A stretch of DNA of 64,000 nucleotides, taken from NCBI RefSeq assembly GCF_030463535.1, contig NC_132899.1, positions 20,675,990-20,739,989 on the forward strand, given 5' to 3'. Positions 4,949 through 63,316 of this stretch are shown piece by piece (within the stretch, counting starts at the first letter, position 1; each line of letters begins with the position of its first letter). The notes beneath the pieces were generated by a model, which saw only the letters and a program-made list of their open reading frames with translations, did not search any database and had not been told where the DNA came from. This stretch comes from Salminus brasiliensis (Eukaryota; Chordata; Actinopteri; Characiformes; Bryconidae). Both the position numbers and the translations under genes were made by a program.

Positions 4949-7900
4949 GTAAGTGATCTGTTCTGCTTCACTGAACAAGTGGTTGAGTTTTACTGCTGTG
5001 CAGAGTTTCTACACGTGTGACATGTTTTATGTGCTCTACAGCATCGTCTCTCAGACAGCAGTGTTGATGGCCTTTACTCCATTAGTGAGGAGATAAGGAA
5101 TCTAATCAATTTAATTAAATGAAGAACTTTTCTAGTGCAGGACTTTTCCTTCTCTCCTCTTCTCTTCTCTTCTCTTCTCTCCTCTTCTCTTCTCCTTCTC
5201 GTCTCTCCTCTTCTATTCTCTTCTCCTCTTCTCTCCTCTTCTCTTCTCTTCTCCCCTCTCCTCTTCTCTTCTCCTTCTTCTCCCCTCTCCTCTTCTCTTC
5301 TTCTTCTTCTCGTCTCTTCTTCTCTTCTCTTCTCTTCTTCTTCTTCTCGTCTCTTCTTCTCTTCTCTTCTCTTCCCTTCTTCTCGTCTCTCCTCTTCTCC
5401 TCTTCTCTTCTCCCCTCTCCTCTTCTCTTCTCCTTCTTCTCGTCTCTTCTTCTCTTCTCTTCTCTTCTCCTTCTTCTCGTCTCTCCTCTTCTCGTCTCTT
5501 CTCTTCTCCTTCTTCTCGTCTCTTCTTCTCTTCTCTTCCCTTCTTCTCGTCTCTCCTCTTCTCTTCTCCTTCTTCTCGTCTCTTCTCTTCTCTTCTCGTC
5601 TCTTCTTCTCTTCTCTTCCCTTCTTCTCGTCTCTCCTCTTCTCTTCTCCTTCTTCTCGTCTCTTCTTCTCTTCTCTTCCCTTCTTCTCGTCTCTCCTCTT
5701 CTCTTCTCTTCTCCTTCTTCTCTTCCCTTCTTCTCGTCTCTCCTCTTCTCTTCTCGTCTCTTCTTCTCTCCTCTTCTCTTCTCCTTCTTCTCGTCTCTTC
5801 TTCTCTTCTCTTCCCTTCTTCTCGTCTCTTCTCTTCTCTTCTCCTTCTTCTCTTCTCTTCTTCTCGTCTCTTCTCTTCTTCTTCTCGTCTCTTCTTCTCT
5901 TCTCTTCTCCTTCTTCTCTTCCCTTCTTCTCGTCTCTCCTCTTCTCTTCTCCTTCTTCTCTTCCCTTCTTCTCGTCTCTTCTCTTCTCGTCTCTTCTTCT
6001 CTTCTCTTCTCTTCTTGTCTCTTCTTCTCTTCTCTTCCCTTCTTCTCGTCTCTCCTCTTCTCTTCTCTTCTCCTTCTTCTCGTCTCTTCTTCTCTTCTCT
6101 TCCCTTCTTCTCGTCTCTCCTCTTCTCTTTTCCTCTCCTTCTCTTCCCTTCTTCTCGTCTCTCCTCTTCTCTTCTCGTCTCTTCTTCTCTCCTCTTCTCT
6201 TCTCCTTCTTCTCGTCTCTTCTTCTCTTCTCTTCCCTTCTTCTCGTCTCTCCTCTTCTCTTCTCTTCTCCTTCTTCTCTTCTCTTCTTCTCGTCTCTCCT
6301 CTTCTCTTCTCTTCTTCTTCTTCTCGTCTCTTCTTCTCTTCTCTTCTCTTCTTCTCGTCTCTCCTTCTCTTCTCTTCTCTTCTCTTCTCTTCTCTTCTCT
6401 TCTCTTCTCGTCTCTCCTTCTCTTCTCTTCTTCTCTTCTCTTCTCTTCTCGTCTCTCCTTCTCTTCTCTTCCCTTCTTCTCGTCTCTTCCCTTCTTCTCA
6501 TCTCTTCTCTTCTCTCATCTTCTCTTCTCTTCTTCTTCTTCTCTTCTATTCTCTTCTCTCCCCTTCTCTTCTTCTTCTCGTCTCTCCTCCTTCTCTTCTC
6601 TTCTCCTCTTCCATTCCTTCTCCTCTTCTCTTCTCTTCTCTTCTCTTCTCATCTCTCCTCTTCTCTTCTCTTCTCTTCTCCCCTCTCCTCTTCTCTTCTC
6701 GTCTCGGTCTTGGTCTCTTCTCTTCTCTTTTCTTCTCGTCTTCTTCTCTTCTCATCTCTCCTCTTCTCTTCTCTTCTCTTTTCTTCTCTTCTCAGTTCAT
6801 CTCTTATCTTTCTGTTTTTCTTTTGTCTTTTCCATTCTTCTCTTGTCTTCTCGTCTCATCTCTTCTCTCTTCTTCTGTTTTTGTCTTTGTTCTGTCTTTG
6901 TCTTGTTCTTCTCTTCTTTGTCCTTCTCGTCTCATCTTTTTTTTTAATTTCTTCTCATCTCTTCTCCTTTCCTCTCCTTTCCCTTCTCATGTTCTTATCT
7001 CACTGTTTCACATTTGTCCGATTTTAATTGGATGGTGGACCTTGCTTGACATGATCTTGACTAGGTAAGCCTTTTGGAATGGAAAGAGTTATATATTAAT
7101 TACTGGAAGGAAACATGCAGAGTGCGGCTCATATATGGTGCTGATGCAGGTCTTAAGGCCAAACAGAGAGACCCTTGTGGTTCTTAACTAAGCAGATTAC
7201 AGGCTCAGTGGTAATCTACAGACTGTTCTTTGATTTGCTCAGGGGTAGATTGGTGCAAGGTACAGAGTTTGTGCATTTTCAGATTTGCCTCAGCTGCCTC
7301 AGCTACCAGCAGGACCTAGGCTGCTGCTGTTCAGCTCATCAGAAGGACATTGCTGGAGTTGGGGGGTCAACAAGAGACATGATGCAGTTCTGAGCTGCCA
7401 CTGGCAGATGTGGTTCTGTACGTTTGTGCTACCAGTACTGTTCCATCACGCCTGCCCTCTTTTGCCCAGGTCCAGTTCATCCAGTGGCACGGCCAGGTCG
7501 GCGGAGAGCGTGGGCATCAGACAGCCGGCCAAGAGCAAGATCCGCCGGCATCAGCACCGCTTGTCCTCTGTTTTCAACCGTGGCATGCTCAGGGCCCGCG
7601 GAGAGATGGCCTCAGCGGGGGAAGAGCCTGCAGTGACCGACGACCCCTCCGAACTATCCAACCACGTCACGGCACCTGGCATTCTGAAGATTTTTGGTAA
7701 CGAGATCTGTGAAGGTGCCAACTATAAAAGTGTCCTGGCCACAACCCATTCCAGTGCCAAAGAGCTGGTCAAAGAGGCTCTAGAGAGGTGAGGGCAGCTT
7801 TGGTATGAACTCTATGGTGATACACGTCACCACCTTTGGAATGTGGGTGTTTTACTAAATCTAATTTACACAACTTTTAGATTTATCTTTAAGACATTGT

Positions 7901-16900: not shown

Positions 16901-19900
16901 AGATGGATGGACACAGCAAGAGATAATATGAACAAGCCATTAAAAAGACTAATGACCAACAGCTGTACATCTTCAGGGATCTGGAGTTGTGGAACTGATC
17001 GATCCTCACTTAGTCTGTTTGGTGTGTTTTCCTTGAGTTCCCTTCACTCTTTAAAATTAAGCTGCTACAAAGGGTTCTTTGAGCAGTGCCATAGAACAGG
17101 GGTGGGTAACAGGGGCCACAGTTTGCTGATTTGCAGACCTACTCAAACTGGCAATTAACAGATGAGATGAATACGATGTTTTTCAGCAGGAAAAGCACAA
17201 ACTGTGCAGGAATCCGTCCCTCCAGGATTAGAATTGCCCACTCCTGGCATAGAAGGGAAACTTTTGGTTCCATAAAGTTGTTTATGCTCTTTTATGAAAC
17301 TAAAAGTTGTTAATCTTTGGCACTGCTCAAAGAACAGTATACGGGTATTCCAATTTCCTCCCACCTCCCAAAAACACATGGTAGGTGAACTGGATTTGTC
17401 AGACGTCCCCCCTAGGTGTGTGGTACCCTCCAATAGACTGGTGCTCTGTCCAGGGGCATATTCCTGCCATGGGTCAATGAATCCAGGTAGTCTTTAGACC
17501 CAAGAAGCAAATAAGGCAGTGAATGAATGAATTATGATAATGTCATAGTGGTCACCAACCCACCTTCAGATCTTGCTGCAGGTTTTCACCTCCAACCTAG
17601 CACACCCCATTGAACTAATCAAGCACTTCTGAAACATTTGGATGGATCAAGTAGAGATTACTAGGGATGGAGCAGGGTTGGTGACTGCTGTCACTTTAGT
17701 GTCAGAAACCAGTGAATATTTGACAGCTTGATACACTTTAAGGCAAGTGTGTAATAAATGTAAGCTTCCATAAATTGTTAACTACAACTTTGTACATTTT
17801 AGCCGCACATAGTTTGGGATTGGGAATCCTCTGCTTTTATTAGTTTGGGTTGTTACTGAAATTTCATCTTATTCCATCTTCAGGATTTCATCATCTACTC
17901 GCTGAGCGGGGGCAGCACTGTTTTTGGCCGGTGTGAAGGTGTGAAGCTCTGGGCCCCTGACATTAAGCAGCAACACTGCTCTGTGCAGCGCCTCGAGACT
18001 GGTCCAGCTTCCGACCCTGACCAAGAGCTCAAAAGAGAAGTGTTGGTGACAGTGCTGACACCCCTGCATGGGGCTGCGGTCAAAAGGAACGGAGCCATCA
18101 TCAGGGAAAAGACAGAGCTACGGTCAGGAGACATTATAGGCCTGGGTGACCATTACGTCTTCATGTTCAAAGACCCTGCCACTGAACGTCTGAAAAGTGA
18201 TCCTCCTGCTGCGGCCTTGCCTTGGCTGGCTCAGGCAACCCAGCCGCCGCCTCCCCTGTGTAAGTCATGTGTGTTATCTGTGTCAGAGGGACCACTAAAC
18301 ACCCTGCCGTGCCTGCGGGATGCTGGCGGGAGGGGGCTCATCCTTGCCTACGAAGTGGAACATGAAGAACGCATCCTGAAGGAGATATTCACAAGGGCGG
18401 ACAGCCATGACGGAGCACACAAAGTAACCCCGTCTTTCCTGCTGTGCTTATGCCTCCAGCAGTCAGCCACACATTTCCCCATGACTGACCTGAGACGACT
18501 TCTCCTGCACATAGCCAACGAGGTTCAGGTGGCTGTGTGGGTAAGGATTCAATTCTAAATGTCCATACAACTAGGTTTTCCTCTCCTTGTCAGTGTTTTT
18601 GAGGTCCTCATATGTGTGCGCTGTCGGGTTCTTTTGCTTATGCAGGAAAAGGCTAAGGAGCTGGCAGCAGTTCAACCTGAAGGGTAAGTATCTCTTGTGG
18701 GTGAATTTTTGGATCTACTAACTAAGTAAGCACTACTAACTAACTAAGTATTTCAGCATCAACAACATTATATGTCAAACGGCAAACAAACTAAATAGGT
18801 TCAGACTACTGACGAACACTCTGTAGTTAATAAACTTGGTGAACTCAGAGTTGCCTTTAACTCAGCTTCACTGGAGGCCCATTCTGTGCCTTCACACAGA
18901 CACCCAGCTAGACATTTTTGCTTAGTAGAACAATATGTGAATGTTGTGAACGTCACAACTATTGTGTCTTAGAATGTTCAATGTGTCTTTATTTACCTTT
19001 TTTATATTTCTTAATTTTTTCTTACAAAAATCTACATCTGGGCTTTTCATATTTCATAGGCATATTAAAAAAATGCAAGTTATTTATTGAAACTTTTTCA
19101 TTATCAGTGAAAATTCTGAATTTCAAAATTTATGTTAAAATAAGTGCTATAATTATAAGTTTGGAAAATGTTTTATGACACATTTATTAACTTTTATTTA
19201 TCAGTGTGATTATTGTATTGTATTTTAGTTTGGGAAAAGTTACTTTTGATGTTTCCATAGTGGTCGTTTTTATTAACTGGGATTGTGTAAGAAACTACGT
19301 TAATTAATAACGTTGTGATAAAAAGCATTTTCCAGAACATTATTTTGGTAACATTACAAACTAACCTCCCTGGAACCTTCTCAAATAATTTCTGAACATT
19401 CCCATAATGTTCTCCACTAACTGTGCAGCCACACTTGTGGAATAGTCACAGTCAGGGGGAGGAGAAGAAACAACCCATTGAGAAGGACCTGTATCAATGA
19501 GGAACAGTTCTTCTCAGCAAGCTGATGCATATTGCCCCTCACAAGCTTACCCAAACCACTGTTAAAGAATGCTGTTTACATTGGACGCATTCTCTCAGTT
19601 TCTCAGTTGAGCTCATACAATGTACAGACAGGTGATATTTTAGAAGTATTCTAAAACATATTTCTCTCCATACCTAAACACCTGACCATCAGTTTTCTCT
19701 TAACAGTGGAGATGATGCAGACCCCGTGGAGCTAGTCAGCACAGAGAAGCTTCTAGATGGTCTACAGCCACTTGTTCTGTGGATGGCAAACTCCATCGAG
19801 CTTCTCCATTTTATCCATCAAGAAGTGCCTCGCTTACTGCATGGGATCTCGCGAGAGGAGGAGGAAGAGGAAGAAGATTGCATGGGTAATAAAGCAGTAA

Positions 19901-40283: not shown

Positions 40284-41532
40284 AAAGAGTAACACAGTCA
40301 GAGTGCAAAAAAGTAAGAGTGAAATAATGTTAAAGAGTAAAACTGAAAACTGAGTGAAACAGAGACAGTGAAAGAGTGAAACAGACACTTAAAGAGTGAA
40401 ACATAGACAGTTAAAGAGTGAAACAGTTAAAGAGTGAAACAGACACTTAAAGAGTGAAACATAGACAGTTAAAGAGTGAAACAGTTAAAGAGTGAAACAG
40501 AGACAGTTTAAGAGTGAAACAGTTAGAGTGAACCAGAGACAGTTAAAGAGAAAACCAGTTAAAGAGTGAAACAGAGACAGTTAAAGAGTGAAACAGTTAA
40601 AAAGTGAAACAGAGACCGTTTAAGAGTGAAACAGTTAGAGTGAACCAGAGACAGTTAAAGAGTGAACCTGTTAGAGTAAAACAGTTAGAGTGAACCAGAG
40701 ACAGATAAAGAGTGAAACAGTTAAAAAGTGAACCAGAGACAGTTAAAGAGTGAAACAGTTAAAAAGTGAACCAGAGACAGTTAAAGAGTGAAACAGTTAA
40801 AAAGTGAACCAGAGACAGTTAAAGAGTGAACCAGAGACAGTTGAAGAGTGAAACAGTTAAAGAGTGAACCAGAGACAGTTAAAGAGTGAAACAGTTAAAG
40901 AGTGAACCAGAGACCGTTAAAGAGTGAAACAGTTAAAGAGTGAACCAGAGACAGATAAAGAGTGAAAAAGTTAAAGAGTGAAACACTTAGAGTGAACCAG
41001 TTAAGGAGTGAAACCTAGACAGTTAAAGAGTGAACCAGAGACAGTTGAAGAGTAAAACAGTTAAAGAGTGAACCAGTTAAGGAGTGAAACCTAGACAGTT
41101 AAAGAGTGAACCAGAGACAGTTAAAGAGTGAAACAGTTAAAAAGTGAACCAGAGGCAGTTTAAGAGTGAAACAGTTAAAGAGTGAACCAGAGACAGTTTA
41201 AGAGTGAAACAGTTAAAAAGTGAACCAGAGGCAGTTTAAGAGTGAAACAGTTAAAGAGTGAACCAGAGGCAGTTTAAGAGTGAAACAGTTAAAAAGTGAA
41301 CCAGTGGCAGTTTAAGAGTGAAACAGTTAAAGAGTGAAACAGAGACAGTTAAAGAGTGAAACAGTTAAAGAGTGAACCAGAGGCAGTTTAAGAGTGAAAC
41401 AGTTAAAGAGTGAACCAGAGGCAGTTTAAGAGTGAAACAGTTAAAAAGTGAACCAGTGGCAGTTTAAGAGTGAAACAGTTAAAGAGTGAAACAGAGACAG
41501 TTAAAGAGTGAAACAGTTAAAGAGTGAAACAA
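40284..41532 (+). repeat. minisatellite array B, about 37-bp compound unit
   Basis: More than 30 copies of alternating AGAGTGAAACAGTTAA and AGAGTGAACCAGAGACAGTT units, with variants such as GAGGCAGTTTAAG. It fills the interval between the rasip1 poly(A) signal and the sulfotransferase promoter. It is the reverse complement of the array at 38440. Confidence 0.95.
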
Positions 41533-41657
41533 AGAGAGAGGGGAGGTGGAGGGGAGGGTGGATGATGAGCAGCGCCCGGAGGCGAGGGAAGCGTCTACAC
41601 TGAAGTTAACCCGAGGCTAACCCTCCTGTCCCGAGCTTTCTCACTACACCTGCGAGA
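41533..41657 (+). promoter_or_regulatory. sulfotransferase proximal promoter/5'UTR
   Basis: The 125 bp between the end of the minisatellite and the ATG is the only single-copy sequence immediately upstream. It contains a G-rich tract (41539-41562, several GGG/GGGG runs) and a GC-rich GCGCCCGGAGGCGAGG block. No TATA box is visible. The ATG context (gagaATGa) has a purine at -3. Confidence 0.45.
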
Positions 41658-52865: not shown

Positions 52866-54433
52866 TGCCCTCCATAATTATTGGCACCCCTGGTTAAGAT
52901 GTGTTCTTTAGCTTCTAATAAATAGTTTTTCTCTAAATAATATAGGACTATGATGGAAAAAAGAGTAAAATCCAACCTTTAACTCAAGTGAATTTTAAGG
53001 GGGAAAACAAATCCCTGACTAAGAAATAATTATTCTTCATAAAATCACCTGTTCCACAATTATTGGCACCCCTAACATTTCTTAGGAAATAAATGTAATT
53101 AAAGTATTTCTGTCAATTCTACAGTAGTTTACGAAGTTGATCAGAGTATGTAGGAACATTTCATTAGTAATTCACAACTTCCTGTTTCCCTGGGGTATAA
53201 ATATGACGTGACACAGAGGCCATTTCTCTTCAACATGGGAAAGACAAAGGAACATACCATTCAAGTAAGGCAGATGTGTGTTGACCTCCACAAGTCAGGC
53301 AATGGCTACAAGAAAATAGCCACTCACCTCCACCTGTCCATATCTACTGTCAGAGAAATTATTAAGAAGTTTAAAACAACTGGAACAGTGGTAAACAAGC
53401 CTGGACGAGGACGCAAGTTTATTTTGCCACCCCACACAGTGAGGAGGATGATAAGAGAAATAAAAAGGTCTCCAAAGCTCATTGTTACAGATTTGCAACA
53501 AATGGTAGCTTCTTGGGGTCACAAAGTCTCCAAAACAACCATCAGGCACTATCTGCATGCCAACAAGCTGTTTGGGAGACATGCACGGAAAAAACCTTTT
53601 CTCACTCACAATCATAAACGCAAACGTTTGGAGTTTGCTAAGCAGTACTGGAACTTCAGCTGGGACCGTGTGCTTTGGTCAGATGAAACTAAGATAGAGC
53701 TTTTTGGCAACAAGTGCTCTAAGTGGGTCTGGCGTAACACAAGAGCTGAGTATACAGAAAAGCACCTCATGCCCACTGTGAAATATGGGGGAGGATCAGT
53801 GATGCTGTGGGCCTGTTTCTCTTCCAAAGGCCCTGGGAACCTTGTTAGGGTGCATGGCATCATGAACATTTTAAAACAAAATCTGGTGGCTTCTGCCCAA
53901 AAGCTGAAGATGGGTCGTCACTGGGTCTTTCAGCAAGATAATGACCCAAAACATATGGCCAAATCTACACAGAAATGGTTCACCACACACAGAATCAAGC
54001 TCCTCCCATGGCCATCTCAGTCCCCAGACCTCAACTCCATTGAAAACCTGTGGGGTGAGCTGAAGAGGAGAGTGCAGAGGAGAGGACCCAGGTCGCTGGA
54101 TGATTTAGAGAGATTGTGCAAAGAGGAATAGTCAAAGATCCCTTTATCTGTATTCTCCCATCTTGTGAAACATTATAAGAGAAGATTAGGTGCTGTTTTG
54201 TTGGCAAAAGGGGGTTGTAGAAAGTATTAACATCAGGGGTGCCAATAATTGTGGCACACATGATTTGATGTTAAACAATTATTTCTTAATGTGGGATTTT
54301 TTTCCTACTGAATAAATTCTTTAAAGAAGTTAAAGGTTGGATTTTACTCTTTTTTCCATCGTGGTCCTATATTATTTAGAAAAAAGCTAAAGAACACATC
54401 TTAACCAGGGGTGCCAATAATTATGGAGGGCAC

Positions 54434-54511
<78 letters not shown>

Positions 54512-57500
54512 ATTTCCCAATGTCAGTTTTGCTCTAATTTTAACTGTGTTATATTTGTGGGTTTCTGTTCTAACAAGCCTCAATTGAAATACTTGCAGAT
54601 CACAAAATGGATAAAACCAGTAAGAACGTTGTACGTCTACTAGAACATCACCCTCAAGGCATCCCTCTCTCGAAGGTGGCTGTGTTCTACAGTCAGAGGT
54701 ACCATCGTAACCTGACCGTGGCAGACCTAGGCTTCACCTCTATTGCTGATTTCATCGCCTCTTTGTCTGAAGATCTGGAGGTCCAAGATGGAACAGTCTT
54801 CCACAGGAAACACGGGCCACAGAGGCAGGATACAGAGGACATGGTCCAGCTGCTCAAAAGCTGTCCAGCAGGCATTCCACTCAGTAAGCTAGCGGTCACT
54901 TTCAGTCAGAGGTATAAAAGAAACTTCACCCTGTCAGCTGTGGGCTTTCCCACAATGGCCACTTTTATTGACTCTCTAAGCAACGAGCTGTGTGTGATGG
55001 GTACCGTAGTGTACCACAAGAGCCACACTGCATTCACAGGTAATGACTCCCTTAATGGAAATGCAATTCTGATGTGCACTGATTGCATTGGTTGCTCTTG
55101 TTTCCTTTCTGTGGTTTTACAGGGCTCAGACGGAGCATTTTCAGTCAGCACTAATGATTAGCCAGGCTTGATGGATTTCCTCAGTTTAGCAAAACACATT
55201 TTCACACATGAATATGGCCAGTCAAAGGTCACTTGATGAGCTAATGTCAATTAGTGGCCAATGCTCTTCCCGTTTGCAAGCAGGAACACACCAAAAACTC
55301 AAACTGCAGTGTTTTCTTATGGTCTTACTTGGTGATTGCTGTGGAGTTGCTAAGTAATTGGTTGGCAGTTGCCATGCTGTTCTATTGGTGGTTGTTATGG
55401 GGTTATAAAAAGATGGGATATCTCATACCTCACAACTGAGTTGTGAATTCTCACTCTAACTGTCGGCTTTAAATGTAAAAAAAAAAAAAAAAAAACTGAA
55501 AATTGCATAGTGGAATCCTGGCTTTAGTGGTTGCTAGGGTCCTTTAGGGTGTTACTAGGTGGTTGGTTAAGCCATGTGCTAAAGTTTTCCTGGTGGTTGC
55601 TATAGGGTTGCTAGGAATTTACTAGTTGAGTAACATGGTGTTGTGTGGTGGGTGCTATAATGTTGCTAGATGGTTAATATGGTATCCCTGGTGGTTGCTA
55701 TGATGTTGCTAAGTGGTTGCTAGTTGGGTGCTATGTGCTAGTGTGTTGATAGGTGGCTGCTACCCAGATGCTATGGTATCCCAAGTGGTTGCTATAGTGT
55801 CTAAGGGGATTGCTAGGGGTTGCTGCGTTACCCTATGGGGTTGGCTTGCTGTTACTAGTGTATTTGTATCATTCAGACATGAGATGGTTGTGCAAACTCA
55901 TGCACCCTATTCAATTTTATGGGGAAATAATGAATTGCTATGTGGAAACCATACATCCAACTTAAGAGTTAGCAGAAATTCCTCAGAAAAAGAAGAAATC
56001 GGATGATTATGCTTTGCAGTGTGTATCTATAATAATCTTAAACATGAAGCGCTAGCCTACGTTAGAGCCCTGGCTTGGTTGAGATGTAACCACAGTAAGT
56101 TAACAAGAAATCTGAGTGTCTTTTCTTGATCATAGAATTGAACTGTTGCTCTACGGACATTCAATGCTATCTTTTCCAGGTTCAGGTAAAGACAGAATTT
56201 CTCGAGAAGTGGTGGACATGGTTAAAGAGCACCCAAAAGGCATCCCCCTCAAGAAGCTGACTGTATCCTACAGTCAGCAGTACAAAAGAAACCTGACTGT
56301 GTCCGAGCTTGGCTTCTCCTCAGTCAGTGCCTTTGTTGACTCTTTGTCCGAGGACTTGTGTGTGGAAAATGAGAATGTCTTCCACAGGACACACAGGGCC
56401 ACTCCTGGGCCCTCAGCACCATCCAGTCAAACCCCACCTCCTCTGATGTCTAGTACCGGAATCTCCTTTGGTGCTACTGCTACTAGTTCTGCACCAAAGG
56501 TGGACGAAATGACACAGGGTGAGCTGCTTACAAAGGTTAAGGAGGTCATCAGGGTCTACCCAGCTGCCGCGACCTCCATCACCCAGCTGCAGAATGGCTT
56601 CTTCCTTCTTTTCGGCGCAATACTGCCGCTGAAGCTCTATATGTCGCTCTATGATAGTCAAGCCAAGAAACAGCAGGCATCTCCTAGCCAAGCGCTGGTT
56701 ATGGCAGAGCTGGAAACAGGAAGATCTGCTAGTACGTAACATAATGATCACCAGAACTTTCTCACTCCTTACTCCACAATATGACTTCCAGCACATTAAG
56801 AACATCAGCTGAACATTAGTGCATGACTCACTTGAATCACTAGCTGCTAACTTTAGTGTTTTTCCAACTGAACCACAGAGGCTTAACGTTATAGTTTAGT
56901 TCCCTCTTAGTGTAAATGTGGTTAACTAGATAAGGTATGTTTGGTCCAACGTCTACCTTGTATGTATAATATATGCATATATATATTATACATAAAATGT
57001 ATATTAGCTGCAAGGTTATTACAGCTAACAAGCAATATATAAATGAGCCTTGAATGCATGAATACATTCTTTTGCACACTGCATAGATCAGTGGTTCCCA
57101 ATCCTGGTCCTGGAGGATCATTTTACTGTTTACTCTGATCCAGCCATTTAGCTAATTAACAAGCCTTTAGGTGGTTTGCTAGAGCAGGAAACCACTTATA
57201 TATGCAAGACAGGTTTGGGAACCACTGCTATAGATAACAGCATGATATCAAGAGTGGAAAGTATTTTCAGGACTACTATTTTCAGGGCTTTATGGGGTAT
57301 ATTGGCTTTTAATGTAAAAAAAAATCAAGGCAATTTAAACAAATTAAGACAGGCTAACTAAAATGGTAAAGTAGCTGGTATTTCAGAGCTAGCTTTTTGA
57401 GTTAACTCAACTTACTTTAGTCAAAAGTTTTCCTAACTCACTTTTTTTTTCTTCTGTATCAACAATGCTTTTTAAGTTGTGCCTCAAAAACCTTAGTAAA

Positions 57501-60050
57501 TGAGCTGCAGATGAAATTGCTTAATAATCAGCAATTATTGATTTTATTATGTGTTGTTCCTCCAGGATCCTTGCCAGGATTTTAACCTATGATCTCCTCA
57601 CACTTTTAATGGGCAGGCGATCAGACTGTTGTGCCACTCTAGAGCTTTCCCCCAATTTGGTACTGTTCATAAAACCCTCAAACAGTACTTATGTTCCCCA
57701 CTCCCGACACTAGGATAGTAAGGGTAAGGACACATGATACCTGCAAAGTCAGCCATCGCCTTTTTTCAAACTGACACTAATGCGGCATTGTGACACAGCC
57801 GAAATGCTCTAACAGACGCCTGTGCTTGCCAGCATTGCTTAAGAATAATATGGGGAGAGAGCGTCATCTACCCACCGAGGGACCTCTGGGCCTTAGCAGT
57901 AGCATATTAGACCCCTAAGTCACTCAGAGCCCTCTTAATATGTATTGTTGACCAAACTGAGATGCAGAAGTAAAAAATGTGAGTTAGGAGAACTTTGTGT
58001 TTTTGACAAAACTAAGTTGAGTTATCTCAGAAACGCTCAGTAGTCAGTTACGTTATCATTTAAGTTGGCCTACAGAGTAGCTACATTAGCTTTATGGCTC
58101 CAGTGCAGAACTAAGGAAGAGAACAGACACCAAACATGTCTTGACTGATTACCTACATGCAGGATGAGGGAGGCATTGTGTAAATTATCATTAAAAAATT
58201 TTTTTTCCAGAATTATTGCATTTATACTACTACCTCTGTTGCTGTTTGCACTGTTAACTGAATTGCCCATGTTCCTTTCGGCCTAACAGCAACGCCAGCG
58301 AAGACAGTTACTGGAACCTTTGTGAGCCCACAGCCTGTGCAGGTTTCTAACGGACCGGCTGAAGAAGTGGTCCGTTCCAAGACTGGCTCTCCTCTGCGAC
58401 CGCTCCAGCCCACTGCGGCTGCTGCTACTGCTGCTTCTCCAGCGGCTTCTTCTAGTGCACTTCTGGAGAACTTCCCAGCCCTCGGCATCAGGCTGTCCAG
58501 ATCTGAGCAGAGGAAGCTTAAGGGGAACCAGGAGGGGAGTGCTCTGGTGTTCCACGAGGACCATCATGCCCAGCTGAGAGAAGTGCATGGAGCGAATGTT
58601 CGGGCAGTGGAGGCTTTGGAGGAGGAAGAGGAGGAAGGAAGTGTGGGGAGGCGCAAGAGGAAGTTCATGAACCCAGACGACGTGAACAGTCTGGCAGAGG
58701 ATGCTATCCGAGCCATTGCAGTGGAGGGGGAACATGTGACTTTTGAGAAGGTGCGTGACTTCGTAATCCTTCCCTTTAGCTTTATGTTTAGGGTTAGATT
58801 TAAGATTTAGGTTAAGGTCAGAGTTAGGTTTTAGGGTTGATTTAAGGGTAAGGTTCAGGTTAAGTGTCCATTCAGTACACAGTCATTTACACTCAGCTTA
58901 GAGGTCAGCTGCATTTAATAGATTTTCAGTTGAATGTTACTTGAATGTAAGGTGAGAATCTATGAGCCATCTATAATGGACCAAGTAAAGTGATACTGTC
59001 ATTTTAAGAAAAGTCTCTACTAAACTAAATCTGTCAGTCCAGAATGTCTCACTATAGAAACTGTTACTAAAAATGAAGTGATTTTACTGAACGTATTAAT
59101 CAACAGCACATCTTATCTAAACTACACTATGTGACTGTATTATTTATACAAACACAAAAACTAGATCGTTGAAAAATGTTGAAAAACACATCATGGGGCT
59201 CGGAGTGACTGCACTACCACTGTGGGCAGGAGGTTGCGAGTTCAAGTCCCGAGCCATGGCACTTTACCGGACTCCCTAAAGCACAAGTGGCCGTATTCTC
59301 TCCCCTCATCGCCCCTAAAGTGATGTTGGATGGTTCAGGTGTCTGTTAGCTGGTCTGACGGAGCTGGGGACCCGTCGCTTTCCTCAAAACGCGCCGGCTG
59401 CCTGACAATGCTGCATCAGCAGCAGTTTAAAAAAAGAGAGAATGTCCTGGAAAAGTCCTGGAAAGCGTATTACTAAAAAGAACATGAACCCCATTTGAAT
59501 ATAATATGAATGTAGAGTAAAAATGAACACTGCATTCCTGTTATTGCATACTCTAATGAGACTAAGGCTGGGAGGCAGGAGAAGTGTGGCGCATCACATG
59601 ACTGTGCTGGAGTGCTGTGTTGAATTATTACACAGCACACTTTATTAGACATAATAATAATGAGAATTCGTATTGCATAATGCACAATGTCACATTTGTA
59701 CACATGCTTCAATGTTGTGTTACACTCCAGAAGAGCAGCTACGCATATATTAGTATTTGTAAATAGCATTGTAAATAGTTTAATTTGAACAAAGCATTTA
59801 CTGGTATTTATTTACAAATAAAAAAAGCTACTCCCTAATATTTCATCAGGCAGTGGTAAGGGTGAGACAGTGTATTGTAGTTATAAAGTCATAAAATCGC
59901 AAGGTAAAAACACAACATTGTGCATTGGGGAGATGTGATTGTGCATTGCAAAGTATGGGCAAGCATATATAATGCAATATCACCAATATATCAATATTGT
60001 AATGCGTTGTTTCACCAGTTTTGAGTGTGACTTCAGAATTGACTTGTGTT

Positions 60051-60111
<61 letters not shown>

Positions 60112-61149
60112 AATAGGTGATAAGCAAAGTATGCACACTCCTGCAAGTGCCCTCTTTGTACTCAGTGAGGATCGACCCTCGTTGGCAGCTGCCTGCTGTG
60201 AAAGAGCTCACACGCACCATTAAAGAGATCAACCTTTTTATTCAGGTGGGGAGCTTTTAATAGATTTTATTAAAGACCTGAGATAGACTTCCAGTCAGTT
60301 CTCTGTCAATTAGAACAGGAGGAGACCTGAGGCCTTATTCTCCCATCTTTGTTCAAAAAAAAAGTAGTTTTCACAAAGATTCTGACATCCCCCCATGTGT
60401 TTTCTTATTTGAGATTTGCTCAATTTATGAGCACAGTGGGATCCATCAAAAACACATCATGAATCTGACGTAGACTTCTTGTTAGGGCTTTTTTTCAAGA
60501 GCAAATAAAAAATACTGGAGAATGAGGCCCCTGGAGGCCCCCTAAAGCAACTATTTAACCTTAAGCTTGTGTGAGTGATGCAAAGTGGTTACATGTACAT
60601 TTACATTTACATTTAAGGCATTTAGCAGACGCTCTTATCCAGAGCGACTTACAAAGTGCTTTGCTATTTACCCAAGAAAAAGCCTTAGCTAGACTTAGAC
60701 TAATAATTCAAAAGAAACCTCTAAGCTTAGACATTACTAAACACAATACAATAAGGCGACCATAGTACTCTATTCGTCCAAGTACTCTCTGAAGAGGTGG
60801 ATCTTCAGTTTGCGTTTGAAGACAGCGAGCGACTCGGCCGTTCGGACACCCATGGGAAGCTCGTTCCACCACTTTGGTGCCAGGACAGAAAAAAGCCTGG
60901 ACGCTTGTCTTCCGTGGATTTTGAGGGATGGCGGGTCGAGCTGAGCCGTACTTGAAGCTCGAAGGGCTCTTGGTGCAGACCGACTTTTGACCATTGCCAT
61001 CAAGTACTGGGGGCTGGTCCGTTCTTAGCTTTGTAGGCCAGCGTCAGGGTTTTGAATCAGATGCGGGAAGCAGCTACAGGAAGCCAGTGAAGAGAACGCA
61101 GCAGTGGAGTGACATGGCTGAATTTAGGGACATTGAAGACGGTTACTGA

Positions 61150-61206
<57 letters not shown>

Positions 61207-63316
61207 TTATATACTTATATATACTTTTTAGTAGAAAGTTTGTAAGATGAATGCTAAACAGTTGCAGTTTAAGGGATTAAATCCATCTGTGTGAAATACT
61301 CTGGACTAACAGTTTTATCTGATCTCTGTTTCCTCTGTTGTCAGTCAATAGAAGCCATCTCCAGCGTGTGCACTCTGTATGAGCTGGGTCAGTCCATTGC
61401 CAGCCTCAAGAACAAGAAACGATTCGAGGAGCTCCACCTAGGCCCTCTCTGCAAGTTCCCACTCGTTCACCGGCTGTTCAAAATAGACAGCAACACTAAA
61501 GATGACGATATACAGCAGATTGAAACTGTGGATATCCTTAGGGTAAGGCATTTTGGCTTCTGGTAGCTGTTGAGTCACAGCTGCCTTGCAGTGCAGAGCT
61601 CTGGAAAGAACAGCTCTGAATTGACGTGGTTTTATATGTGTGGAAAAAAAGAGGGGTGGGGTGCGAGGCCCAAGTTCAGGCCAGTGCCTTCCTACCTGGG
61701 GTAAAAAACTGATGAATTGTTCATGAATTTGTTATCTAAGCTTTACAAAATTTCAGTTTTATCATTTTTGCGTATTCTAATATTTGCTTTTTTTTCTTTT
61801 TTCTTAATTTTTTCTTTTGGAAATTATATACACTTTTGAATCAAGTAGATTGACATGCAGTCAGGTCCATAAGTATTTGGACAGTGACACAATTCATATA
61901 CCTTTGTCTCTGTACATCACCTCACTGGATTTGAATATAAAGCAATCTAGATATGATTGAAGTATAGAGTCTCAACTCTAATTCTAGAGGTTTAACAAAA
62001 ATACTCCAGCAATAGTTAACAGGAGTAACAGCCCCACTTCAACAGGTTTAAAAGTAATTGGACATACTAACATAGTTACAAATATAAGGGTTATTTCTAA
62101 TATTTGTATGCATATGCTTTAACTGTCGGACATCACCAAATGCTGAGTTTCCTGGTTTCCCAGGCCTTTACTGCATCGGCCTTTAGTTGCTGCTTATTTG
62201 TGGGTCTTACTGCCTTTTGTTTTGTCTTAAGTGACAAAAGTAAAAAAAAAAAGCTGCTCAATTAGCACTCGGCCATGTAAGAACATGGGATGCTTTAATC
62301 ATCAGTGAACACCAGTGACCCAGTTCCATCAGCATCTATACATGCCTGTACCATAACTGTGCTTATATCATGTTTGAGAAATGATTTGGTCTTCTTCGGA
62401 TCATGAACCTTTCCTTTCCTTCTCTGTAAGTCGGTTTTGGTTTCACCTGACCAAAGCACTTTTTTAACTGGTCTGGCAGTGTTTTTTCAGACTTTTTATC
62501 TCCTTTATTTAACAGGCCACAGCTGGCAATGAACCTTGCCTACCAGTCTTCTGTCCAATTACTTATGAGTCAGTGAAAACGTAGGGTCTAAGTAAAAATG
62601 GCTGTCATTTTGAAATGGTTAATACAATATTTTATAAAACGTCTAGAATTAAAGCCAAAAGCAGGCACTTCAATCACATCCTGATTGCAATCATTCCACT
62701 GCTCATGTCCGATATACCCATGGCCTACATGCCTTTATATAGGATGTGATTCTTTTTCTGCTCAGTCGTGTTTGACATCTAATTTACATTCATGTTGCTT
62801 TCTGTAGAGTCTTCGTAACTTCAGGCGAACCCAAGGCAAACCTAAGGTGGACCTTGCCGAGTTCATGCAACACCTTGCAGACCAGTACAACTGTGAATCA
62901 CCTTATGAACTCGGCATTAGGATCCAGAGCGTTGGCCTACCCATATCGGTAAGGCGTTAAATTACAAACAAGACTCACTATGAGAGTCACTATGCATGCT
63001 CTGGAAAGTCAGTTGGTGTCCGTCATTACCTGTTGTCTTTTGGATCTTCTGTCAGACATTGTCAAAAGCACACGGCTGTGAGAGCGCTTGCATGGACAAA
63101 GCCAGAGAGGCCATTCAGAAGGAGATTGAAGAGGAGGTGCAGGCCAGACTGTTTAAAATCAAAAAGAGCCTGATGGAGCCAGCCCAGGGAATGCCACTCT
63201 ACTCCTCCGCTGGCAACCTGGAGCTCAGGAAGAAGTACGCCAGTCTCACCGCTGCTGAGGCTGTCATGGAGGTCTTCAACAACTCTGTGGGCATTTTTAA
63301 TCAAAGGATGACCAAG
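47803..63316 (+). CDS. LOTUS/OST-HTH triple-domain protein, 5' part (runs off the right edge)
   Basis: Exons: 47803-47923 (first exon, tentative), 54599-55039, 56180-56731, 58290-58750, 60117-60245, 61345-61542, 62808-62948 and 63056-63316. From the ATG at 54607 the chain is 725 codons with no stop, and the gene continues past 64000. It carries three LOTUS domains (about 3-68, 75-138, 148-212), a helical segment TQGELLTKVKEVIRVYPAAA, a Pro/Ala-rich linker, an acidic EEEEEEG stretch beside RRKRK, and a long helical region with conserved-looking FPLVHRLFKID and YASLTAAEAVMEVF. LOTUS domains bind G-rich or G4 RNA, and some bind DEAD-box helicases; most known members act in germ-line RNA control. 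The C-terminal half resembles what I remember of vertebrate NO VEIN-like proteins (ATPase fold and DUF3883 further downstream), but that is a weak recollection. MARF1 and TDRD5/7 are less likely because no NYN, RRM or Tudor segment appears. Confidence 0.85.
48945..49215 (-). mobile_element. tRNA-derived SINE copy 2
   Basis: Same family and orientation as 24538-24796: it shares GGGCCTTGCTCAAG, CAACAGTGGCAGCTTGCC and GGAATCGAACCCACAACCCT in the plus-strand form. It lies in LOTUS gene intron 1. The short frames through it on both strands are not genes. Confidence 0.82.
49500..49790 (+). mobile_element. LINE 3' tail fragment
   Basis: AAGCGCTCTGGATAAGAGTG TCTGCTAAATG at 49742-49772 is the same 3' tail as in the LINE at 60592, in the opposite orientation. 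About 240 bp of probable 3'-end sequence precedes it, without a clear frame. Confidence 0.6.
49998..50153 (+). repeat. direct duplication, copy 1
   Basis: Shares with 50813-50980 a nearly identical block: GTGTAATCATGGTGTCTCTC to CACAGGGTTAACTG. The second copy has about 15 extra bases (ctgcagatgagcagg). Lies in LOTUS gene intron 1. Confidence 0.92.
50813..50980 (+). repeat. direct duplication, copy 2
   Basis: Copy of 49998-50153, about 815 bp downstream in the same orientation, including TATGTAAACAGTGTGGGGAA and CACACACTGAGCTCAGTC. Confidence 0.92.
51595..51745. repeat. TTGTATCTCC short interspersed repeat
   Basis: One of at least six copies sharing TTGTATCTCCAAAATTGCAA, CTTTCAATAGA.GTCAGTGTA and AAGTCATTTTGGGGCATTTC TATTGGT. 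Others are at about 531-600 (partial), 656-720 (partial), 16530-16700, 34195-34365, 34615-34770 and 63585-63745. There is no coding capacity. Confidence 0.75.
52608..52790. mobile_element. Tc1-like terminal fragment
   Basis: CAGTGGCGTGCCAAAGTTTA GGCATCCTGGTC at 52611-52642 matches the inverted-repeat end of another Tc1/mariner family. No partner end or transposase is visible before the (AT)n tract at 52799. Confidence 0.5.
52799..52862 (+). repeat. (AT)n tract left of the Tc1 element
   Basis: Interrupted (AT)n. It continues on the other side of the transposon at 54436-54506, so the element inserted into one longer AT tract. Confidence 0.95.
52863..54435 (+). mobile_element. Tc1-like transposon, near-intact, one premature stop
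   Basis: Both ends start CAGTGCCCTCCATAATTATT and are flanked by TA (52861-52862 and 54436-54437), the Tc1/mariner target duplication. The inverted repeats are about 110-120 bp and contain inner copies of the ATTATTGGCACCCC box (near 53058 and 54235), an IR/DR layout. The right repeat lacks about 14 bp present in the left. It lies inside (AT)n in intron 1 of the LOTUS gene, same orientation as the host gene. Confidence 0.95.
53235..54230 (+). pseudogene. Tc1-like transposase with a single nonsense codon
   Basis: Starts MGKTKEHTIQVRQM; the upstream in-frame ATG at 53208 is less likely. It has paired-like helix-turn-helix units, a GRGRK linker, and catalytic Asp (WSDETK), Asp (QQDNDPKH) and Glu (SIENLWGELK), the last two with 34 residues between. 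TAG at 54129-54131 follows CKEE, where the family has Trp (TGG). The same frame then continues 32 codons to RKY and TAA at 54228-54230. The only visible lesion is this one base change, which removes the last tenth of the protein. Confidence 0.9.
54436..54506 (+). repeat. (AT)n tract right of the Tc1 element
   Basis: Nearly pure AT for about 65 bp, ending about 90 bp before the acceptor of the first LOTUS exon. Confidence 0.95.
54599..55039 (+). CDS. LOTUS gene exon: LOTUS domains 1 and 2
   Basis: Two LOTUS winged-helix repeats in one exon, both with the GIPLSK, SQRY, RN and GF hallmarks: LLEHHPQGIPLSKVAVFYSQ and LLKSCPAGIPLSKLAVTFSQ. Each ends in a turn and an FHRK/YHK strand. The acceptor is cttgcag at 54598 and the donor cag|gtaatg at 55039, leaving phase 1. 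The exon lies 164 bp after the Tc1-like element, with only (AT)n between them. Confidence 0.9.
55510..55865 (+). repeat. degenerate GGTTGCTAGGGTGTT minisatellite
   Basis: Repeated variants of TGGTTGCTA(T/G)(A/G)GGTGTTGCTA with drifting period, starting weakly near 55330. It lies in the LOTUS gene intron between exons 54599 and 56180. A small related patch is at 50690-50760. Confidence 0.8.
56180..56731 (+). CDS. LOTUS gene exon: LOTUS domain 3 and helical segment
   Basis: Third LOTUS repeat (VKEHPKGIPLKKLTVSYSQQ, RNLTVSELGFSSVSAFVD, FHRTHR), then a Pro/Ser linker (GPSAPSSQTPPPLM). A separate helical unit follows, TQGELLTKVKEVIRVYPAAA with FFLLFGAILPLKLYMSLYDS, which may be a degenerate fourth winged helix. 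Acceptor ttttccag is at 56179. Donor gtacgt at 56732 leaves phase 1, matched by the next exon. Confidence 0.87.
57085..57232. mobile_element. fold-back MITE
   Basis: AGATCAGTGGTTCCCAATCC at the left and TTTGGGAACCACTGCTATAG at the right are inverted ends of the same broad group as the element at 17535. Lies in the LOTUS gene intron after exon 56180-56731. Confidence 0.65.
58290..58750 (+). CDS. LOTUS gene exon: Ala/Pro linker, acidic run and NLS-like block
   Basis: Encodes TTPAKTVTGTFVSPQPVQV, an Ala-rich stretch, then ALEEEEEEGSVGRRKRKFMN. The acidic block next to RRKRK looks like a nuclear localisation signal, but that is inference. The exon ends NSLAEDAIRAIAVEGEHVTF-EK in phase 0. Its splice sites are standard (gcctaacag / gtgcgt). 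Confidence 0.85.
59195..59430 (+). mobile_element. SINE-like element, different family
   Basis: GGTTGCGAGTTCAAGTCCC near 59230 is a B-box-like site. It is followed by the GCACTTTACCGGACTCCC, GGTGTCTGTTAGCTGGTC and GGCTGCCTGACAATGCTGCA body, then an A-rich end. Lies in the LOTUS gene intron before exon 60117. Confidence 0.6.
60050..60110 (+). repeat. (TG)n microsatellite at a splice acceptor
   Basis: About 28 uninterrupted TG units up to 60109, followed by TTAATAG and the exon at 60117. Confidence 0.97.
60117..60245 (+). CDS. LOTUS gene 129-nt symmetric exon next to (TG)n
   Basis: Forty-three codons, VISKVCTLLQVPSLYSVRID through TIKEINLFIQ, in phase 0 at both ends, so skipping would keep the frame. 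The acceptor tttaatag is separated from a (TG)28-type tract by only a few bases, leaving almost no pyrimidine tract. Coding identity is supported by frame continuity with the exons on both sides. Confidence 0.82.
60592..61145 (-). mobile_element. LINE 3' end, 5'-truncated
   Basis: The minus-strand frame 60770-61003 reads LKIHGRQASRLFSVLAPKWW, VRTAESLAVFKRKLKIHLF, the end of an L2/CR1-type ORF2. Beyond its stop is the GCATTTAGCAGACGCTCTTA 3' tail (plus-strand form) and an (ACATTT)n end at 60597-60616. The 5' truncation point is next to the (AT)n tract at 61148. Confidence 0.75.
61150..61206 (+). repeat. (AT)n microsatellite
   Basis: About 27 AT units between the LINE fragment and the exon at 61345. 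Confidence 0.95.
61345..63316 (+). CDS. LOTUS gene exons: unassigned helical region
   Basis: Exons 61345-61542, 62808-62948 and 63056-63316, all in phase 0. They encode SIEAISSVCTLYELGQSIAS, FEELHLGPLCKFPLVHRLFK, SLRNFRRTQGKPKVDLAEFM, a YNCESPYELGIRIQSVGLPI segment, and a charged helix KAREAIQKEIEEEVQARLFK. They end in LRKKYASLTAAEAVMEVFNN. No catalytic motif is visible. The region could be the N-terminal helical part of a larger enzyme whose catalytic domain lies beyond this window. Confidence 0.83.
61855..62745 (-). mobile_element. decayed Tc1-like element
   Basis: The left terminus reads CAGTCAGGTCCATAAGTATT TGGACAG, a widespread fish Tc1-type end. On the minus strand a stretch near 62430 gives KVLWSGETK, the first catalytic region with Asp changed to Gly. 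The CAATTACTTATGAG motif near 62555 belongs to the interior. Lies in the intron before exon 62808 of the LOTUS gene. Confidence 0.7.

Follow-up and report, generated by a model that had tools for sequence, protein, structure and literature searches.

The stretch of DNA analysed here (the window) comprises 64,000 nucleotides, C26:20675990-20739989, and the genome searched together with it comprises 1.07 Gb in 103 contigs and, judged from its content, appears to be that of a fish. A preliminary description of the window had placed a protein with three LOTUS (OST-HTH) domains, an acidic/basic linker and a "helical C-terminal half" in the interval 54599..63316. The outer borders of this interval are exact: a splice acceptor directly precedes position 54599, and a donor directly follows 63316. 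The six exons implied within it have AG/GT borders throughout and compatible phases, which confirms the observation. Their list needed amendment at two points: a probable exon at 60166-60245 had been overlooked, and the donor at 56731 is rivalled by one at 56518. The features of the gene are as follows, with the evidence for each given last:

54599..55039, + strand: exon 1, with an ATG at 54607, LOTUS 1 (~54613-54789) and LOTUS 2 (~54826-54999); AG/GT borders, OST-HTH match, 78.6 and 78.1 bits against the LOTUS profile
56180..56731, + strand: exon 2, LOTUS 3 (~56197-56367) followed by a Pro/Ser-rich stretch, donor 56731 (preliminary description) or 56518 (gene finder); splice borders, LOTUS profile
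56519..56731, + strand: optional extension of exon 2, LOTUS-like sequence; LOTUS profile 2.5 bits, 8 of 500 shuffled versions as high
58290..58750, + strand: exon 3, low-complexity linker with an acidic run and a basic GRRKRKF patch; splice borders, gene finder
59230..59338, + strand: doubtful exon in a stretch that resembles a tRNA-SINE (by eye); gene finder
60166..60245, + strand: the probable overlooked exon (RIDPRWQLPAVKELTRTIKEINLFIQ), helical region; gene finder
61345..61542, + strand: exon, helical region without family match; splice borders, gene finder
62808..62948, + strand: exon, helical region without family match; splice borders, gene finder
63056..63316, + strand: exon, helical region without family match, last exon inside the window; splice borders, gene finder
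74365-81678 (extended window coordinates), + strand: sacsin/Hsp90-like ATPase exons, outside the window; model, Pfam
109425-109995 (extended window coordinates), + strand: NOV_C exon, outside the window; model, Pfam

Elsewhere in the window, an open reading frame of the Tc1/mariner transposase type (by eye) lies at 53154-54131, just upstream of the first exon. A 38-bp tandem repeat with about 32 copies occupies 40329-41535, and a CTTCT-type pyrimidine tract of 1.8 kb, accompanied by local strand skew, occupies 5149-6966. An exon-like frame at 17860-18555 resembles, by eye, an FHA domain as in genes of the RADIL type.

The preliminary description had suggested following the gene beyond 64 kb. 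For this extension 60 kb from C26:20735990 onward were taken, and a splice-aware gene finder was applied that combines codon log-odds with generic splice matrices for vertebrates. The first chain had 43 exons and 2,641 aa. As prokaryotic relatives contain two conserved blocks that were absent from this chain, the two blocks were added to the training set and the splice thresholds were relaxed. The refined model has 46 exons and 2,840 codons, spans 54607-109995 (extended window coordinates), and thus runs 46 kb past the window. Since other intron penalties shift the counts to 43-54 exons and 2,784-3,028 codons, the small exons are uncertain; those at 59230-59338, 85607-85656, 104163-104236, 105037-105073 and 108689-108719 are weakly supported and could be incorrect, and the one at 59230-59338 is probably a placeholder for a phase change that was not found. 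With a free start, the gene finder chose the same first and last base at a score of 665.7, compared to 87.1 when it was run on the complementary strand; window positions 1-54500, which may hold other genes, scored 224.4 (+) and 38.5 (-). Because this gene itself supplied the training data for the codon table, this control speaks for coherence rather than being independent proof. Independent support for the predicted gene is protein homology, and it is a prediction of the model that the LOTUS and ATPase portions are continuous in one transcript.

The three OST-HTH domains of the preliminary description were recovered by Pfam as three stretches, with E 1.5e-24 in the exons of the interval and 1.9e-22 in the full model. 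They form an array at residues 1-207 of the predicted protein and reach 78.1-78.8 bits with a LOTUS profile for which ten such domains of the same genome, these three included, were used; a single-sequence search of the PDB with LOTUS stayed at chance level (best E 0.77). In pairwise comparison LOTUS 1-3 have 30-36 of 65 aligned residues in common, while only 8-16 of 56-64 residues are common to them and the LOTUS domains of one TDRD7, one MARF1 and TDRD5 of the same genome (names by eye). This higher likeness among the three fits tandem copies within one gene. The other LOTUS loci of the genome lie on C7, C9, C17 and C28 and resemble MARF1, two TDRD7 genes and TDRD5 (by eye). A fourth, degenerate LOTUS domain in the optional part of exon 2 was considered and set aside as possible at most, given its score and that of the shuffled versions. 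The ends of the profile matches are 13 residues apart between LOTUS 1 and 2 and 19 residues apart between LOTUS 2 and 3, and LOTUS 3 runs into the Pro-rich stretch. The LOTUS extension of Oskar, as defined by the constructs described for it, has 18 residues. The gap after LOTUS 1 would leave little room for an extra helix, the one after LOTUS 2 may accommodate it, and the array is probably of the minimal kind.

The linker with acidic and basic segments described after the LOTUS domains is present in exon 3. The helical part that follows is predicted to be coding, and the helical stretch at 63.3-73.5 kb has a gene-finder score of 130.2 versus 29.3 on the other strand; in the model the protein does not end there but continues far beyond it. 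No Pfam family matches the helical region at E<=0.1, and a SulA match in a later part (E 0.13, first model) is at chance level. Residues ~450-1180 are without family assignment, and for residues ~450-1168 no relative was found in the PDB, viral contigs, PHROGs or prokaryote ORFs. The single PDB match has an E value of 1.9, a 501-aa query against viral contigs gave 17 pattern matches with none confirmed, a 139-aa part gave no match in PHROGs at E<=0.01, and none of 98 alignments to 463 prokaryote ORFs begins before residue 1169 of the fish protein.

Only three Pfam families, OST-HTH, SACS and NOV_C, match the 2,840-aa model at E<=0.1. SACS covers residues 1224-1355 (E 3.1e-15, 57.1 bits, cut-off 32.8), and the sacsin N-terminal ATP-binding family of NCBIfam (NF047352) matched the first model with E 3.5e-19. 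NOV_C (PF13020, DUF3883) covers residues 2722-2818 (E 5.8e-14, 52.4 bits, cut-off 22.1). A C-terminal NOV_C domain with an Hsp90-like ATPase upstream is characteristic of the NO VEIN family, and both are present in the predicted protein, in line with the earlier conjecture that the LOTUS exons might lead to a NO VEIN-like ATPase with DUF3883 downstream. Tudor, NYN and RRM domains, which would have made this a known TDRD or MARF1 gene, were looked for downstream; no such family matches the model at E<=0.1, and identity with TDRD5, TDRD7 or MARF1 was rejected. A genome search with NOV_C, in which the best candidates were scored, gave one match, which is this gene. With a piece of the ATPase from the first model the PDB search returned sacsin and mitochondrial Hsp75 (E 0.0064-0.25), and with NOV_C it stayed at chance level (best E 0.71).

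The part of the protein from the ATPase onward has counterparts in prokaryotes. The PADLOC profile TmtA (PDLC03972), which we take to represent a protein of the Tiamat anti-phage system and which is listed among the anti-phage proteins of this library, matched five stretches of the first model, in which two exons were still missing, with E 1.1e-103, starting from about residue 1174. Residues ~1186-2840 are a collinear, near full-length relative of TmtA, with the ATPase, a long middle region and the NOV_C end in the same order. To collect relatives, contigs were scanned with the fish ATPase (first model) and four plasmid relatives as seeds. Out of 472 confirmed loci the best 80 were kept, and with the plasmid loci added the set has 84 loci and 463 ORFs; at E<=1e-3, 86 of these ORFs align to the fish model, in the 98 alignments mentioned above. 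The refined model aligns to a protein of a Leptospiraceae MAG (L019) over residues 1186-2612 (14-1352 of L019, 25%, E 2e-96) and again at the NOV_C end (2717-2837 to 1351-1484, 27%, E 4e-6). The Calothrix brevissima protein (L020) aligns over residues 1186-2044 (28%, E 7e-86) and then in two weaker pieces, and L034, L032, L028, L021, L022, L024 and L025 rank next.

For the comparison of individual residues we used an alignment of 16 of the 84 loci, chosen for length; L043, L047 and L057 were excluded as divergent and L017 is absent. The TmtA profile matches all 16 members, NOV_C 8 and SACS 14, the last count being lowered by the trimmed row of L020, which is without the ATPase. The ATP residues of Hsp90 have been mapped on sacsin, as presented in PMC9880540, and via this map R1495 is the equivalent of the catalytic arginine. 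This residue and E1233, N1237, D1240, F1271, G1296, G1299, G1301 and F1302 are identical in all 16 prokaryotic relatives, and N1267 is kept in 13. Residue 1281, marked for the lid lysine of sacsin, lacks conservation (3 of 16), and this position is probably misplaced. At the position of Hsp90 Ala41 the fish protein has Asn. Both points were counted against the reading preferred below.

The fish NOV_C domain contains the motif D2756...E2774-V-K2776, and in the alignment 14 of the 16 relatives agree with it in D, 8 in E and 9 in K. Using patterns of our own making, we found a PD-(D/E)XK pattern at the C-terminus of 8 relatives, a Cys/His HNH-like pattern in 6 and neither in 2; Pfam detected NOV_C in 8 of these C-termini, NucS_C in 1 and HNH in none. 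The HNH-like Cys/His end stands in place of NOV_C in L024, L031, L032, L033, L035 and L037. This distribution suggests that the nuclease-type end can be exchanged while the ATPase body stays the same. Because either of two nuclease-type patterns sits on the same body, the C-terminal end may be regarded as the effector, and DUF3883 is termed a novel restriction-endonuclease domain in a published analysis (PMC3710099). The limitation of the PD-(D/E)XK pattern to half of the relatives and the counts for D, E and K in the alignment speak against the preferred reading.

Genes next to the prokaryotic relatives were scanned for domains in 8 ORFs from 8 loci, chosen by size. Helicase, HEPN, NERD or methylase domains occur in 6 of them: an SNF2 helicase with a Swt1-like HEPN domain (L031 and L035), SNF2 (L027), a UvrD helicase with PD-(D/E)XK (L024), NERD with a Schlafen-type helicase (L025), and an Eco57I methylase (L036). 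L019 and L020, the nearest relatives of the fish protein, show no defence domain in the one neighbour scanned for each, and this was counted against the interpretation. Of the plasmid relatives, L016 adjoins qatABCD and L015 adjoins helicases and a restriction endonuclease; the annotation around L017 and L018 contains no clear defence genes. Among 50,697 phage records one was matched. In this faecal phage record of 16.8 kb (MT835838.1, 3449-3730, H17) about 100 aa have 37% identity to the fish ATPase.

The relationship to TmtA and to sacsin was also followed in phylogenetic trees. In a quick tree that contained all 84 prokaryote rows besides the fish gene, the latter fell into a group of 21 rows (SH-aLRT 92), nearest to L019 and L020. 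A careful tree was calculated from the fish gene, 31 of the 84 prokaryote loci and five sacsin modules (10 sacsin loci were available, of which 5 were used); it places the fish gene in a TmtA clade of 10 rows (bootstrap 95, SH-aLRT 94), and the nearest rows are the same in both trees, with a weaker fork in the quick one. A topology that unites the fish gene with these five modules, which come from the same fish, is rejected (AU p 0.00017), and by this result and its domain content the gene is not a sacsin paralogue. The terminal branch of the fish gene is long (1.06), and a tree of prokaryote rows and proteins of this one fish does not show the direction or date of any transfer. The genome has 16 SACS matches: three sacsin-like genes (two on C8, one on C11) account for 15, and the last, which falls short of the cut-off, corresponds to an exon of the gene described here. 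The two sacsin-like genes C8:2589200-2605366 (-) and C8:2653954-2665261 (+) are opposed and about 50 kb apart (L100-L103), and the ATPase modules L100 and L101 are nearly identical, by recent duplication or as an effect of assembly.

The best mechanism we can offer for this combination of domains is held tentatively, at somewhat less than even confidence. It says that a vertebrate gene of the NO VEIN type begins in the window with its first exons, that the predicted protein fuses a LOTUS array and a helical adaptor to a near-complete TmtA relative, and that the LOTUS array would select structured RNA or RNP targets for an ATP-gated nuclease. The tandem LOTUS domains would bind structured (G-rich) RNA or an RNP; binding of the ligand would lead the Hsp90-like ATPase to close around ATP, with the arginine of its own middle domain, and this closure would position or release the C-terminal PD-(D/E)XK-type domain, which would cut the bound nucleic acid. 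The likeliest setting would be surveillance of RNA or mobile elements in the gonad or early embryo. What the analysis shows directly is anatomy: the domains and their sequence in the model, the conserved residues of the active sites, homology over nearly the full length and a single genomic NOV_C match; a common transcript, binding of RNA, the ATPase and nuclease activities and a role in the germline are inferred. We favour this mechanism because minimal LOTUS domains are reported to bind G-quadruplex RNA, because MARF1 provides a precedent and because the spacing after LOTUS 1 is short. Extended, Vasa-binding forms of LOTUS domains are distinguished from minimal ones in published work, which reports binding of G-quadruplex RNA for minimal forms and coupling of minimal LOTUS domains to a nuclease in MARF1 (PMC5458760, PMC8331183, PMC6294520). 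By analogy, the array of the fish protein might be coupled to its C-terminal domain as that of MARF1 is to NYN. The possibility that the ligand of LOTUS is a protein (Vasa) instead of RNA, raised by such reports, counts against RNA targeting.

The main rivals of the nuclease reading are a developmental scaffold and a chaperone. In the first case the protein would regulate RNPs or cell fate in an ATP-dependent manner and would use the nuclease fold for binding only. Such a role would be in agreement with the description of plant NO VEIN as a nuclear cell-fate factor rather than an immune nuclease, which also counts against nuclease activity, and with a report of a female-biased NO VEIN homologue in an acanthocephalan; the intact D...ExK motif of the fish protein argues against it, and we consider it rather unlikely. 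The preliminary description had spoken of a chaperone-like ATPase. In that case a sacsin-like, Hsp90-like module would fold or clear proteins in RNP granules and the NOV_C end would be structural, for which the SACS score well above its cut-off and the agreement of most ATP-site residues with sacsin can be cited. However, the protein has a single ATPase stretch where sacsin has three, Pfam detected neither DnaJ nor HEPN nor a ubiquitin-like family in the model at E<=0.1, and the D...ExK motif is present at the C-terminus. Together with the nearly end-to-end alignment to TmtA, the domains of the neighbouring genes and the separation from sacsins in the tree, this makes the chaperone the weaker reading and an unlikely one.

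Two explanations concern the identity of the gene itself. The LOTUS domains and the NO VEIN part could belong to two neighbouring genes on the same strand, one ending near 73 kb and the other starting near 74 kb, and the stretch without profile match between them would allow for this. The model is nevertheless phase-compatible throughout, the flanking intron has only 0.94 kb, and the helical stretch scores as coding on the strand of both parts. Moreover, exon 74365-74555, with which the TmtA-like part opens, has no ATG before its conserved GIG...LERLS block (translation might start in an exon farther upstream), and the Calothrix protein begins just upstream of this block. We therefore regard two genes as quite improbable. 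The three LOTUS domains would also suit a TDRD5, TDRD7 or MARF1 gene, to which we assign hardly any probability: the lack of Tudor, NYN and RRM families at E<=0.1 excludes it if the model represents one gene, and the other LOTUS loci of this genome already resemble these genes.

Fusion of LOTUS domains and a TmtA relative in one vertebrate gene provides a concrete biochemical hypothesis for the NO VEIN family of animals, and adds one more candidate to those genes of eukaryotes that have relatives in the defence systems of prokaryotes. Animal LOTUS proteins that have been characterised are described as mostly germline RNA regulators. Vertebrates might even keep a complete, active Tiamat homologue, re-aimed by an RNA-binding LOTUS array, which would guard germ cells or embryos against viruses and mobile elements; this broader idea we rate as rather unlikely. 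In plant-associated metagenomes all Tiamat calls are reported to lie on plant DNA (PMC12409356). The TmtA profile may detect plant NO VEIN and this may explain these calls.

Among named genes, the vertebrate "protein NO VEIN-like", represented by wu:fj29h11, presumably a zebrafish gene, is presumably the orthologue; it was compared by name and not by sequence. A paper of 2025 equates NO VEIN with wu:fj29h11 and knows of no characterised animal homologue (PMC12690905). In the open-access literature no paper was found that combines NO VEIN with a LOTUS domain (subscription papers and protein databases were outside this search), and none for NO VEIN-like and zebrafish; the sole match for OST-HTH and DUF3883 lacks OST-HTH in its main text, and Tiamat occurs with NO VEIN, LOTUS domain or sacsin in none of the matches listed. 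A term search in the main text of the founding paper on OST-HTH found no "ATPase", "HSP90" or "sacsin". The LOTUS-NO VEIN architecture may already be in a database.

Plant NO VEIN (NOV), set beside the fish gene by description and not by sequence, has NOV_C in common with it, and an Hsp90-like ATPase domain is reported in a protein annotated as NO VEIN. Sacsin has a similar Hsp90-like ATPase module (SACS domain) with common ATP-site residues, but is described with three such modules, DnaJ and HEPN, while the fish gene has a single SACS stretch and belongs to a separate clade. Human and mouse MARF1 likewise couple a LOTUS array to a nuclease domain, which in the fish gene is predicted; the NYN nuclease and RRMs described for MARF1 were not found in the fish model. 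Prokaryotic TmtA aligns with fish residues 1186-2840 over nearly its whole length, from the ATPase to the nuclease-like end. None of the 463 ORFs from the 84 prokaryote loci is matched by the LOTUS profile at E<=10, whereas the fish protein has three LOTUS domains.
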